A DNA stretch of 23,693 nt from the IMG/VR virus record IMGVR_UViG_3300038825_000561, positions 1-23,693 of that record. The stretch is one strand, 5' to 3'. This DNA is from a virus. Position numbers and translations under genes: made by a program. Numbering within the stretch: position 1 is the first letter of the stretch; every line of letters begins with the position of its first letter. This document shows positions 178 to 5,120 of this stretch, piece by piece. The notes beneath the pieces were generated by a model. The model made no database searches and was not told where the DNA came from. It saw only the letters and a program-made list of their open reading frames with translations.

Positions 178-1053
178 TTAAAGTAATCTTCCTGCGTTGC
201 CAGCTTTTAAAATTCTATCCCACGAAACATCTAACTCGCTTTTTACCTTAGGATCTCCTCCTTGTAAAACGCCAGCAGACATAGGGATTGATTGAGTCTC
301 TGTCACAGCTTGTAAATTTTCAGATGGTTGAGCATTAACACCTTTGTTATAATGCTGTCTATAAACATTGATTAATAATTCAACTGGCAATTGATCTCTT
401 GGAGTCATTGCGAAGTTAATAAATTCATCAATTTCATTATCATCTGCCATACCATACTTAGATTTTAACTCACCTTTTAAATTTTGCATAGCAACTTGAC
501 TTTGGATACCAGCCATCTGTTCAGAGACTGCTTCGTTAACCAAAGCCTTTTCCTTCTCTACTCGTAACTTGTACGAAGGAGAGTCGGGTTTATAATAGGC
601 TTCCCACGGGTCAAATGAGGCTTCGTCAACAGTATTATCTGTAGGCGAACTCGATGTATCACCACTAACAGGCTTATTCTGTAATTTATCTTGAAGAGCT
701 TGAACTACATCTGGTCTAGATTCTAGAACCTGCTGTAACTGCTTTAAAGGCTCAAGAGATTCAACTTGCTTTTCAAGCGAAGCGTAATCTGCTTTTTGCT
801 TATCATACATAGACTGAAACTTTCTAGTCTCTTGTTCCCAATCAGTTCCGTAATCAACTTGAGATTCGTCACCTTCAGCTACAATTTCAGTTGGTTTTTT
901 ATGACCTTGTTCATCGACTTCTTCTTTTACGTCTTGAGGACTTTCATCACTAACTATCTCTACGTCTGGCATCGATATTGACATTCCTTCATTATCTCTA
1001 GCCAGCCTATCCTCATAAGTCTGTTCTGTGCTTTGTGTTGCTTGGTCTTCCAT
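178..1053 (-). CDS. Probable capsid scaffolding protein
   Basis: This 291-residue protein is very acidic in its first 80 residues and then helical. A coiled-coil-like stretch lies around residues 78-130 (heptad-like runs of Leu, Gln, Lys and Glu), and there is a second charged helix around 165-205. No enzyme motif is visible. Acidic, coiled-coil proteins encoded between portal and major capsid protein are typically internal scaffolds that shape the procapsid and leave before or during packaging. The start ATG at 1053 has a purine-rich GGAAAGGAAAT just upstream. The gap to the capsid gene is 25 bp, so the two are probably co-transcribed. The call rests on position and composition, not on sequence similarity. 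A prohead protease is less likely because no Ser/His protease motif is seen. Confidence 0.65.
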   Translation of the reverse strand: MEDQATQSTEQTYEDRLARDNEGMSISMPDVEIVSDESPQDVKEEVDEQGHKKPTEIVAEGDESQVDYGTDWEQETRKFQSMYDKQKADYASLEKQVESLEPLKQLQQVLESRPDVVQALQDKLQNKPVSGDTSSSPTDNTVDEASFDPWEAYYKPDSPSYKLRVEKEKALVNEAVSEQMAGIQSQVAMQNLKGELKSKYGMADDNEIDEFINFAMTPRDQLPVELLINVYRQHYNKGVNAQPSENLQAVTETQSIPMSAGVLQGGDPKVKSELDVSWDRILKAGNAGRLL

Positions 1054-1132
1054 ATTTCCTTTCCGAATCTTCTTACTCCTTTATAAACCATACCTTTCGA
1101 TATTTTCCAGGTAAGACTTGACTCTAGTTTTG

Positions 1133-3145
1133 TTAACCTTCAACGCCTTCTTCGGCACCCACTATGCCTTCCTTAGTATTAGCGTACCTAGCTTGTAAAT
1201 CAGCTTTATCGATTACATTTTCCATCCGATTCAGATTTTTTCGTTCTTTATCTTTTATTTGATTAAGAGCGGAATCAAGATTTGTCTTGAATTTCTGAGT
1301 GATAGTTTGTTTTCTAGCATTTACTGCTTCACGTTCTGACGTTTGCAAATCACCACTTAGTTTCTTAACCTGTTCTTCAAGTTGTTGTATGTAACCCTGC
1401 ATCTGACTCATAGCACCTTTACGCTTTAATACACCTTCTTTGTCATAGATTTCTGATTTTTTCAGAACCTCGACATCGTCCACCAGACCCAACTTGTAAG
1501 CATCTAAATACATATTGTATTCAGCCATCTTATTAGACGGCAATGTTGAGCCTGATACTATTCTAATATCATGCTGACCTAAACTAATGTCATTATCAAT
1601 TGTTTGTAACTCATTCGTCTTATCGTCATAGAGCCTATTATTAATAGTAAACTCAGATATGTCATTATTAGGTTGCACGATTCTAAAAGTCTTTTTAAAG
1701 TTATAATGTCCTTTAGCAAAGTTATAAACTACTCTGCCAAGAATATCCAAACTTCCCTCTATATCCCTAAGTTTTGAGCGACCACGGCTTTCTCCCATCT
1801 CCTGTAAAAGATACGTTCCTCTAACTGTATCTGGAGCACCGCTTTTAAATCCCTGCATTAACTCGGATATACCAAAATTTAAATCTATATAAAACTCTAC
1901 CCTCGATATCAATCCATAAAACTCAGAAGCCAAAGGTTGTGGAGCTGGATAATGAGGTTCACCAAACTCTGGATTGTACTCAATAACAGCATTAGGGTTA
2001 GCCCAATCTCTCTCTAATTGACCTAAGTCGTCAACGCTTCCTTCTGGAACTAATAGCTTTAGACCAGCTGAGGCTTGTGCATGGCTTAATGTCAAAGAGA
2101 ATAATTTATTAATTAATCTCTGAGAATCTTTAACTTTAGTTACATCTGATTTTGGATATGGAGTATTAGTCCAAATGTTTGGGACTGGTATAATTGGATA
2201 TGTATCCGTATTGAGAACTTGCTCATATAATAAAACTTGTCCTACAGTTGCAACATGGTTGATCCTAGTCTGTAGAACCTCAACTGCCTCGATCAGTCCC
2301 GACTCGATTAAGTGTGAGTTTTCAGCCAATACTTTTTCAAAAGATTGTAAATCAACAATTTTTTCTTCTTGAGTTTCTTTATTGAATAATCTATAATAAG
2401 GAACTTTGATTTTAGAAAAGCGTTCAATCACTCTATATTTTTCATACCCTCCTCTATCATAATCCTTTACAACGTCTGGAGTAAATGATGAAGATGAGTT
2501 TTTCTTTTTAGATGCTGGATAGTCTTCTTCTTCTGTAGAACTATCAATACTATCTATAATTTCTTCAAGTTTAGGATATAATCCTAGCAATTGATCTTTT
2601 GTTAATATTGTGGAAAGAAGCATTGAAGATGCATCTGCATAGTATCTATCTCTAGATGCAGGATCAACATATACTCTAAAAGGATTTACGCTTGTTACTT
2701 TTACATCGCCTCTACCGAAGTCTGACTCCGTATCTACATATACATAAAAATAACCCAAACCAGAAACAGAGTAGTCATGAACCACTTGCTTAAAGTGAGT
2801 GTTACAATCTGAGATGTCCCAGACATATTCTAATATTGTTCTCCAAACATTTGAAAGCTTGTAGTCAGAATCTTCTCTGGCTACTGCTGAAAACTTAGGA
2901 TTTCTAGATGTTAATAATGATTTTAACTTATCGACCGCAGCATATACCCTGTCAATAATAAAATCACCTTGTCCAACGGATTGCAAAACCTCAGATTCTT
3001 CTGTTGAATAATGATTGCCAAGTGAAAAATCAATGGCATCCCTAGCTTCAACTTCCCAATTCGATCTTGCATCCCTCCACCTTCTCCAAAGTTCTCTGTT
3101 TTTTTGAGCTTCATCGTGCTCGGCAAAAGTTTCTACGTAATTAAT
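1133..3145 (-). CDS. Portal protein, probable ATT start
   Basis: The portal forms the dodecameric ring at the capsid vertex, through which terminase drives DNA and to which the tail attaches. The ORF encodes about 670 residues. The N-terminus has a P22/podovirus-like portal pattern: a Trp/Arg-rich WRRWRDARSNWE helix, an Asp-Phe-x-Leu-Gly motif, then GQGDFIIDRVYAAVDKLKSLL and NPKF. The C-terminal 120 residues form a charged coiled coil. The frame stays open from a TAG at 3164-3166, yet it has no ATG, GTG or TTG before a TTG at 2986. Starting at 2986 would remove the conserved N-terminal helix. AAGGAG at 3152-3157 lies six bases before ATT at 3143-3145, and a promoter lies just upstream, so ATT is my choice of start. 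A sequencing error is the main alternative. Confidence 0.82.
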   Translation of the reverse strand: MNYVETFAEHDEAQKNRELWRRWRDARSNWEVEARDAIDFSLGNHYSTEESEVLQSVGQGDFIIDRVYAAVDKLKSLLTSRNPKFSAVAREDSDYKLSNVWRTILEYVWDISDCNTHFKQVVHDYSVSGLGYFYVYVDTESDFGRGDVKVTSVNPFRVYVDPASRDRYYADASSMLLSTILTKDQLLGLYPKLEEIIDSIDSSTEEEDYPASKKKNSSSSFTPDVVKDYDRGGYEKYRVIERFSKIKVPYYRLFNKETQEEKIVDLQSFEKVLAENSHLIESGLIEAVEVLQTRINHVATVGQVLLYEQVLNTDTYPIIPVPNIWTNTPYPKSDVTKVKDSQRLINKLFSLTLSHAQASAGLKLLVPEGSVDDLGQLERDWANPNAVIEYNPEFGEPHYPAPQPLASEFYGLISRVEFYIDLNFGISELMQGFKSGAPDTVRGTYLLQEMGESRGRSKLRDIEGSLDILGRVVYNFAKGHYNFKKTFRIVQPNNDISEFTINNRLYDDKTNELQTIDNDISLGQHDIRIVSGSTLPSNKMAEYNMYLDAYKLGLVDDVEVLKKSEIYDKEGVLKRKGAMSQMQGYIQQLEEQVKKLSGDLQTSEREAVNARKQTITQKFKTNLDSALNQIKDKERKNLNRMENVIDKADLQARYANTKEGIVGAEEGVEG

Positions 3146-3174
3146 GGTAGGCTCCTTAGATATCTATGCTATAT

Positions 3175-3203
3175 AATATAGTATAAAAAGGTTAATAAGT
3201 CAA
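3175..3203 (-). promoter_or_regulatory. Sigma-70-type promoter for portal-scaffold-capsid genes
   Basis: On the reverse strand there is TTGACT (3198-3203), a 17-bp spacer and TATATT (3175-3180). Each box matches five of six bases of the sigma-70 consensus. The predicted transcription start is about 3168, giving a leader of roughly 23 nt that contains AAGGAG and then the proposed ATT start of the portal. The same boxes with the same spacing occur at 6285-6313 and 8261-8289, which argues against chance. Confidence 0.75.
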
Positions 3204-3211
3204 GTATTATT

Positions 3212-4732
3212 TTAAATTCTTTGTCCAGTTATCCAACTTCTAACTTTAGATTTTACTTTTTTAGCGATATCTGAATTTTCCTGTACATTAAAATCTTTAG
3301 ATTCAAAGCTTTTACTTATTGGAGATCTTGCATTTGTAACCGAATACCAAAGACCATCAAGTAAGTCATCATTCTTTCCTTTTGGAAAATGAAACATTTC
3401 ATCAATTATTTCTTGATGATGTTTTTTTATATATAATTTACCTCTATTAACAAGAGGGCAAAGAGTAGATTCCAACCTATCTTCTTTTTTTATTCCATGT
3501 GGAGGTCTAACTCCTCTTGCAAGTCCTGGTGCCATCTTTCTATCAATTCCACTCATTTGATTCACAGAGTCTTTAATAATTCCTTGCGCTCCTACGTGCT
3601 CTACGTTTACTCTCCTTATAGGAGAGTAAAGCCTAGCAAGCTCAAATATCTTCTTTGGCATCTCATACAAAGGTAGGTGTTCGTGATAATAATCAATCAC
3701 ATAAAAATTCTTTTCGCTATCAACAGCAGTAACCATTATAACTTGATAATCATTGTTAGCATTAGACTCGTAAGCTAAGTCTACTCCCATATAAATATTT
3801 ACAGGAATAATTGTATCGCCATTTTTTAAATAAGCTTGGTTCGCATTACTGACTAACTCATAATCATGTTTTTGTATTTTATCTATTTTAAATTTTGCAG
3901 TTGCCAAGTCTCTAGCATCATTCATGTACTCTTGTGCAAACTTATGTAATTGACCTACGTTTTCATAATCTTTTCTTATTTGATTTATTTTTTCTTTTGA
4001 AAAGTAAGAAGCCCACAATGGATTACCGTCTTCTAATACTCTGTGAAATATTACATCCCAAGTATATGATTCCTTTTTTTCTTTTGCTTCTAAGTATCCG
4101 TCGTATATAGCTTGCAATGCAGAATCGTAATGGACTATTGTTCCAATCAGCCAAATAGCTCCTTCGTTTCCTTTTGATTCTTCAAGAGATGGATATACTG
4201 TTGACATGAGCCACTCTTTAATTTCTCTACGTCTGTCTGGAGTTTTAGTATTTAACTCAGATTCAAAGTCATCAAGAATAATTTTTGTATATCTTGTTCC
4301 AAGTTCAGATCTACCACGAAGCCTCTGACTAGTTCCTTTAGCTATTATTCTATCTCCTCTGCTAGTTGTTATTTCTTTCTCAGTCCACTTATCTCCAACT
4401 AAATCTCCAAAGTAATAATTTAAAGCATTGTTATATTCAATATGATTTTTAATATATTTTAGATGGTCTACTGCTTGCCCTTGCTCTTCTGAAACCCATG
4501 CTGCAAATTCTTTTTTCCCTTTGGGATTAAAATATATCTTATGCATCAATGCTGCCTTAGCCATCGTAGATTTAGAATGACCACGAGGCAATACAATACA
4601 TAGTTTTCTAATATCAGAATCTAAAAGCTTCTTACCAACTTCATAATGAAATGGAGCAGGAGATGACTTCATAAAATCTTCTGGCAAAAATAGCTGTCCG
4701 AAAGCAATTAGATCTTGAGATGCTAATCCCAA
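3212..4732 (-). CDS. terL: Terminase large subunit (packaging ATPase/nuclease)
   Basis: TerL hydrolyses ATP to pump DNA through the portal and cuts concatemers. Numbering from the TTG at 4732 (506 residues), the ATPase domain has a Walker A-like loop PRGHSKST at 49-56 and a Walker B stretch IILDDFESE at 151-159. The RNase H-fold nuclease domain has an acidic motif MGVDLAYES near 315-323 and a late acidic motif NDDLLDG at 454-460. Length is normal for the family. The start is uncertain. The frame stays open upstream to a TAA at 4802-4804, through a residue run (QKEKDRVLGLASQDLIAFG) that looks like part of the protein, so initiation may lie farther upstream at a non-ATG codon after the GGAG at 4794-4797. 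The gene follows the GGCT-like gene and precedes portal. Confidence 0.93.
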   Translation of the reverse strand: MGLASQDLIAFGQLFLPEDFMKSSPAPFHYEVGKKLLDSDIRKLCIVLPRGHSKSTMAKAALMHKIYFNPKGKKEFAAWVSEEQGQAVDHLKYIKNHIEYNNALNYYFGDLVGDKWTEKEITTSRGDRIIAKGTSQRLRGRSELGTRYTKIILDDFESELNTKTPDRRREIKEWLMSTVYPSLEESKGNEGAIWLIGTIVHYDSALQAIYDGYLEAKEKKESYTWDVIFHRVLEDGNPLWASYFSKEKINQIRKDYENVGQLHKFAQEYMNDARDLATAKFKIDKIQKHDYELVSNANQAYLKNGDTIIPVNIYMGVDLAYESNANNDYQVIMVTAVDSEKNFYVIDYYHEHLPLYEMPKKIFELARLYSPIRRVNVEHVGAQGIIKDSVNQMSGIDRKMAPGLARGVRPPHGIKKEDRLESTLCPLVNRGKLYIKKHHQEIIDEMFHFPKGKNDDLLDGLWYSVTNARSPISKSFESKDFNVQENSDIAKKVKSKVRSWITGQRI

Positions 4733-4775
4733 TACTCTATCTTTTTCTTTTTGCTTATCTGAGTTTATATTAAAA

Positions 4776-5120
4776 TTATCTATTGTACCAATCTCCGCTT
4801 TTTATCTCTGTAAACATACTACTTCTTTGAAGTAATTCATCTCCAGCAACATAAATCCATACATTCTCTGTATCTCCGTCATCCATCTTAACTTCCGCTT
4901 TTACTCGTCTATACAATCCAGAAGCCACACCCTCATATATATCATATCTTTTTATATCATCTTCTGTAACATCATGAACCTCAACAACAGTTCCCTTGCC
5001 TTTTTTATTTTGTATAACAGCTGGAAATTGCTTATGACCTGGATATACAAGTGAAGAGTTTTCTAAAACACCTGTGTTTTTATTTCCACTCCTTAATGTT
5101 CCATATACAGCTAATTTCAT
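4776..5120 (-). CDS. Gamma-glutamylcyclotransferase-like (AIG2/GGCT fold) protein
   Basis: This 114-residue protein has the signature of the AIG2-like GGCT superfamily: YGTLRSG at 6-12, which forms the glycine-rich substrate-binding loop, and YEG at 62-64, where the Glu is the usual catalytic acid/base, followed by a LYRR strand. Family members cleave gamma-glutamyl amides or gamma-glutamyl-amine bonds, releasing 5-oxoproline and a free amine. Start and stop codons overlap with the upstream 74-residue gene (ATGA), so the two are translationally coupled, and TerL follows. It is unexpected inside a packaging operon. The same genome encodes a class II glutamine amidotransferase and an amidoligase on the other strand, a set associated with the GGCT fold in comparative genomics. 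The substrate is unknown. Confidence 0.85.
   Translation of the reverse strand: MKLAVYGTLRSGNKNTGVLENSSLVYPGHKQFPAVIQNKKGKGTVVEVHDVTEDDIKRYDIYEGVASGLYRRVKAEVKMDDGDTENVWIYVAGDELLQRSSMFTEIKSGDWYNR

Follow-up and report, generated by a model that had tools for sequence, protein, structure and literature searches.

Where translation of the portal gene begins, and why it begins there, is the question raised by one locus of an uncultured marine phage, analysed here as a 23,693-base record (the window). Read from stop to stop, the portal frame has TTG at 2986 (residue 54) as its first ATG, GTG or TTG, and re-reading of the sequence agreed with an earlier, sequence-only reading that no such codon lies between the in-frame TAG (3166-3164) and this TTG. 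The 5' end of the gene reads, on the minus strand, TAG ATA TCT AAG GAG CCT ACC ATT AAT TAC GTA, where, as that reading had pointed out, AAGGAG (3157-3152) precedes ATT (3145-3143) by six bases. Its predicted transcript start at about 3168 is fair as a prediction, derived from the pair formed by TTGACT (3203-3198) and TATATT (3180-3175), 17 nt apart on the minus strand. The features of the site are as follows.

1133..3145, minus strand: portal protein gene, P22-like, 670 codons from ATT
3143..3145, minus strand: ATT start codon of the portal gene, a conserved AUH (AUU, AUC or AUA) behind a Shine-Dalgarno (SD) sequence; coding conservation starts at this ATT
3152..3157, minus strand: SD sequence AAGGAG, with a 6 nt spacer to the ATT
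3164..3166, minus strand: in-frame TAG stop 5' of the portal start
3175..3203, minus strand: sigma-70-like promoter TTGACT-17-TATATT, directly 5' of the portal gene

Start Codons of Related Portals

Among the best 80 of 272 portal relatives found in viral contigs, one (L055) is cut at the 5' end, and the other 79 without exception carry ATT or ATC behind an SD; in L068-L070 the AUH start is read two codons further on. The near-identical contigs L002-L005 (99-100%), from four other metagenomes, repeat the ATT of the window, which rules out a read error at this codon. All 24 further loci, obtained from 68 fetched, also have AUH, represented in six of them by AUA; L098, L099, and L122 contain in addition an in-frame ATG six codons upstream, located before the SD and lacking an SD of its own. 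In the clade nearest to the window (clade A), the start is ATT in 40 and ATC in 2 of 42 distinct contexts, with GGAG 6-7 nt upstream. The ATT start is conserved in this clade beyond chance expectation, the codon and the upstream GGAG being kept and the next codons evolving as coding sequence.

Clades C and D were added by a wider pattern scan (among the matches listed), two further searches and scripts. Portals of clade C ("GQADF" portals) are about 67% identical to that of the window and those of clade D 51-53%. Most clade C lineages read TGGGAG-TTT-ATG-GCT and others TGGGAG-AAT-ACT-ATC or TGGGAG-TAA-ACC-ATC, with AUH one codon downstream of the AUG position of the sister lineages; the third of these forms contains an in-frame TAA stop, separated from AUC by ACC alone. 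The nearby AUG in sister lineages confirms AUH as the mark of the start region. A scan of bacterial genomes for a prophage or host found no relative, and among annotated phages identity did not exceed 23.4% for the window portal (14 records) or 22.2% for a clade C portal (20 records).

The whole collection comprised 420 sequences (419 loci plus the window, many loci being overlapping fetches of the same contigs). The anchor motif was found in 394 of them, giving 174 distinct contexts with enough upstream DNA, and the 160 whose portal stretch reached 590 residues or more were labelled. Their starts are ATT in 54, ATC in 33, ATA in 11, TTG in 1, and ATG in 61; that is, AUU, AUC or AUA in 98, AUG in 61, and UUG in 1 of the 160. 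The comparison with start codons of related portals, proposed earlier as a check, showed no case among the 160 contexts in which the window's clade has ATG in place of its ATT or in which the later TTG start is needed.

Two other readings of the site can be weighed against this survey. Translation might begin at TTG 2986 or at some other canonical codon, the frame 5' of it being untranslated, as an ORF list limited to ATG, GTG, and TTG had returned; this is hardly credible. The Pfam profile P22_portal (PF16510) matches the AUU-started protein over residues 18-587 (E 2.6e-51; 175.3 bits vs a curated cut-off of 26.1) and PHROG 156, "portal protein," matches it from residue 12, so that both begin upstream of the TTG. 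Codons 2-53, compared between the window and 41 other distinct clade A contexts, show a mean pS of 0.66 and pN of 0.09 (ratio 0.133), evidencing selection at the protein level and excluding this TTG as the main start; the earlier claim that the N-terminal part of the portal is encoded 5' of it was therefore correct. Moreover, in 77 of the 99 non-AUG contexts the stretch from the in-frame stop to the conserved helix motif is free of ATG, GTG, and TTG; the other 22 contain such a codon, upstream of the start in 6 cases (ATG in one) and between start and motif in 16. Alternatively, AUH could be an internal isoleucine, with ribosomes arriving from the upstream terminase gene (terL) through readthrough or a frameshift, a view that draws on AUU, AUC, and AUA being mutually synonymous Ile codons and that we consider very improbable: every context has an upstream in-frame stop 1 to 37 codons away (a single codon separating stop and start in 5 of the 99), AUH stays while the flanking residues diverge, the sister lineages have Ala at the AUH position behind their AUG, and third-base usage at the start differs from that of internal Ile codons (ATA 1801, ATT 1637, ATC 485).

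Based on the lack of a canonical alternative and on in-frame coding conservation from the AUH codon onward, the proposal that the portal gene begins at the rare start codon AUU is well supported. The suggestion that this start is a selected one likewise held, given its clade-wide conservation and the distance of a single codon that separates it from the homologous AUG in sister lineages.

The sequence around the start is also constrained at the nucleotide level. Synonymous diversity along the clade A portals reaches its minimum, among 184 windows, in codons 1-5, and TAC GTA GAA directly after the start (3129-3140, minus strand) is frozen at synonymous sites across the 42 contexts; low synonymous diversity in the first five codons is what a ribosome footprint would give. 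Synonymous diversity is low here in the AUG portals of clade C as well, without being the minimum among their 187 windows, and TAC GAC after the start is frozen likewise. Compared with shuffles, folding is weaker in the leaders of clade A (mean z +1.0, 42 contexts), and those of clade C have a mean z of -1.3 (74 contexts), with one (L310) at -3.7, some of whose paired bases may precede the predicted transcript start. Given the weak folding of its leaders, an RNA hairpin operator covering SD and start is not supported for the window's clade. Nor is a DNA operator at the frozen TACGTAG after the start supported by the copies of CTACGTAG, which number 6 against 6.4 expected, with no excess; a longer motif of this site, allowing up to 3 mismatches, occurs in 39 copies vs 27.8 in shuffles.

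Start Codon and Shine-Dalgarno Spacing

All 99 non-AUG starts have an SD core 6-8 nt upstream, a figure partly built in, since a spacing of 5 nt or more was required for the label; no non-AUG context failed this rule. The AUG starts, chosen without any spacing condition, lie 3 nt behind the core in 48 of 61 cases and 4 nt behind it in 4, the remaining 9, all from clade D, having no core, and none of the 61 is found 5 nt or more behind a core. No in-frame AUH occurs 6-8 nt behind a core in any of these 61 contexts, and AUG is found in none of the 77 contexts of clades A and B. A 3-nt SD spacer is in general poor for initiation and would be so here. Other ATG genes with a core in the AUG-lineage loci show a spacing peak at 6-8 nt and 0 of 130 at 3, in a control that preferred starts with an SD core where present and so favours normal spacing. 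With the E. coli anti-SD, which is assumed and may not be that of the host, median SD/anti-SD energies are -8.2 for clade A, -8.4 for clade B, -7.3 and -6.8 for the non-AUG and AUG members of clade C, respectively, and -3.3 for the AUG starts of clade D. That AUG is restricted to sites with too short a spacing (3-4 nt) or no SD core suggests that weak initiation is the conserved trait.

When 145 distinct portal proteins are placed on a tree, using the sequence from the anchor motif on, the AUG/AUH/UUG states need 5 changes and AUG/non-AUG about 4, out of 15 start-codon changes in all. Well-supported branches provide three independent pairs, and in all 3 a change of codon comes with a change of spacing; with a sign-test p of 0.25, this is consistent with a trade-off and not significant by itself.

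A Proposed Weak Start in the Context of a Probable Head Operon

The portal gene adjoins the upstream terL in the window, and the gene that follows it is listed below.

178..1053, minus strand: gene after the portal, probable scaffold by position, ATG start with AGGA 3 nt upstream

No scaffold profile matches this gene, which is named by its position, as in Thalassomonas phage BA3. In relative L150 the portal is followed by a 294-aa gene and by the PHROG 1328 major head protein, two genes downstream of the portal, and the window ends before that position. This P22-like gene order agrees with the terminase, portal, scaffold, and head protein of BA3, which has a small gene between terminase and portal. 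A promoter-like pair matching at least 10 of 12 positions of the sigma-70 consensus stands before the portal start in 95 of the 99 non-AUG contexts, and the best scores in AUG contexts are 8-10. AGGA stands 3 nt before the AUG of the probable scaffold gene in 29 of 31 rows of the window's clade examined (window 1051-1060, minus strand), indicating that short spacing is not unique to the portal.

Altogether, the explanation that we regard as probable is that the portal is the first gene of a promoter-driven head operon and that a weak initiation site holds this low-copy protein down. In such an arrangement, initiator fMet-tRNA would start portal synthesis at AUU (AUC or AUA in relatives) behind a strong and well-spaced SD, on an mRNA that would be transcribed from the portal's own consensus promoter and would continue into the probable scaffold and the major head protein. 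The mismatched start codon would cut initiation, so that each mRNA would yield far less portal than head protein. Stoichiometry would then be the reason for the weak start, which may represent the simplest route to the portal/head ratio from one mRNA; P22, with the same kind of portal, is described as having 12 portal vs 415 coat subunits (PMC9962691).

The sequence-only reading had called the start "low-level or regulated," and these two possibilities fare differently. Portal synthesis could follow the IF3-to-ribosome ratio of the host during infection, as for infC, considering that IF3 represses AUH-type starts, that infC is given an ATT start in E. coli and ATC in Streptomyces (PMC5472188), that all three AUH codons occur and that AUG is absent from clades A and B. 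However, the relatives with AUG at 3-4 nt or without a core would lose start-codon control by IF3 and keep weak initiation, and a scan of the window and of 18 pieces from 8 long relatives detected no tRNA gene, which also counts against a phage-borne initiator tRNA. Timing sensed through IF3 is thus unlikely and, as the weakness persists while the codon changes, "low-level" describes the start better than "IF3-regulated": the first part of the earlier claim is favored by the codon/spacing trade-off and the second fits less well. Neutral drift is quite unlikely too. Under drift, a strong SD would let any AUN suffice, efficient portal synthesis being unneeded, and AUH would persist unselected, in line with a third base that changes freely among U, C, and A; yet drift would often produce AUG at the same site, and AUG is lacking both at spacings of 5 nt or more and throughout clades A and B.

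The Terminase Start

A comparable situation may exist at the gene upstream of the portal, for which the following features are considered.

3212..4783, minus strand: terminase large subunit (terL), probable AUA start at 4783-4781, GGAG 9 nt upstream (4796-4793)
4776..5120, minus strand: gamma-glutamyl cyclotransferase-like gene upstream of terL, its 3' end overlapping the terL start

In ten long contigs, homology that extends far 5' of the first canonical codon is confined to the portal and terL (the latter in the window, G003, and G009), once conserved short SD stretches ahead of ATG, frames on the antisense strand, and frames truncated at contig ends are set aside. AUA 4783-4781 is the only consistent start-like terL codon in the window's clade. 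In the gene that overlaps it, among 61 distinct contexts, an Asn/Asp codon ends in T and Arg is encoded by AGA in all 61, and Tyr is TAC in 56 and TAT in none, compared with a Tyr 22 codons earlier that is TAT in 53 of the 61. The terL start position is mostly ATG in clade B and ATG in clade C, by which the AUA start of the window's clade is graded as probable only; AUU-like terL starts are seen in L242 and L276. A GTG start for terL in this clade was rejected, as the codon alternates between GTG and GCG by synonymous change in the overlapping gene. That initiation strength and not the codon is conserved family-wide, with stoichiometry set by a start-codon mismatch and terL obeying the same rule, is a wider proposal that might hold, and towards which we are nearly evenly divided, leaning slightly against it.

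Comparison with Known Non-canonical Starts

An AUU start in a phage morphogenesis gene is known from T4 gene 26, where it is an internal restart giving a short product and is not known as a main start or a clade-wide one. Portals of the P22 type (PF16510, PHROG 156) belong to the same protein family as that of the window, and in the two distant annotated members examined an SD-like sequence stands 5 and 8 nt ahead of an ATG start. The gene for IF3, infC, likewise has a conserved non-canonical AUN start that limits initiation; however, it is autoregulated via its own product, and the portal protein is not known to take part in start selection. In Staphylococcus aureus the infC start is reported as AUA, and in cvfC1 (AUU) and ccpN (AUA) a strong extended SD directs a conserved start, as in the portal; these are, in contrast, cellular and not phage structural genes, and the account consulted describes no turnover of codon and spacing for them (PMC13009471). 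Reporters with AUU or AUA and strong SDs reached about 10% of AUG in poor medium in this species, and one of them up to 30% in rich medium (PMC13009471). The GTC start of Streptomyces sigR is described as setting the ratio of SigR to its partner RsrA and differs from that of the portal in the codon and in that its IF3 dependence was demonstrated by experiment (PMC5472188). Rises of 3-15 fold from non-canonical starts are reported in infC fidelity mutants (PMC5472188). Neither a phage portal with an AUH start nor a clade-wide non-canonical start in a phage structural gene was found in searches of the open-licence PMC literature.

Non-canonical starts are thus already known (infC, sigR) and those characterized experimentally are few; AUH starts escape gene callers restricted to ATG, GTG, and TTG. 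Viral databases are likely to contain truncated N-termini for the portals of this family, and perhaps for their terminases, with consequences for structure prediction and virion proteomics. A clade-wide AUH in an essential structural gene, naturally swapped for a badly placed AUG, would provide a ready-made evolutionary experiment for asking how a single phage operon sets the ratio of 12 portal to hundreds of head subunits.

Other Genes and Contigs

The window also encodes a DnaB-type helicase and a Sak-type annealing protein. Genes related to glutamine amidotransferase, amidoligase, and gamma-glutamyl cyclotransferase occur together in this one phage (11412-14165 and 4776-5120) and are possibly a cell-wall or glutamyl-peptide module. 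Regarding the relatives, one contig (L017, record G004; 80,282 bases) carries two different portal genes of the window portal's family, for which it may be a join of two phages, and in another (L024, record G005) one in-frame TAA crosses the portal match.
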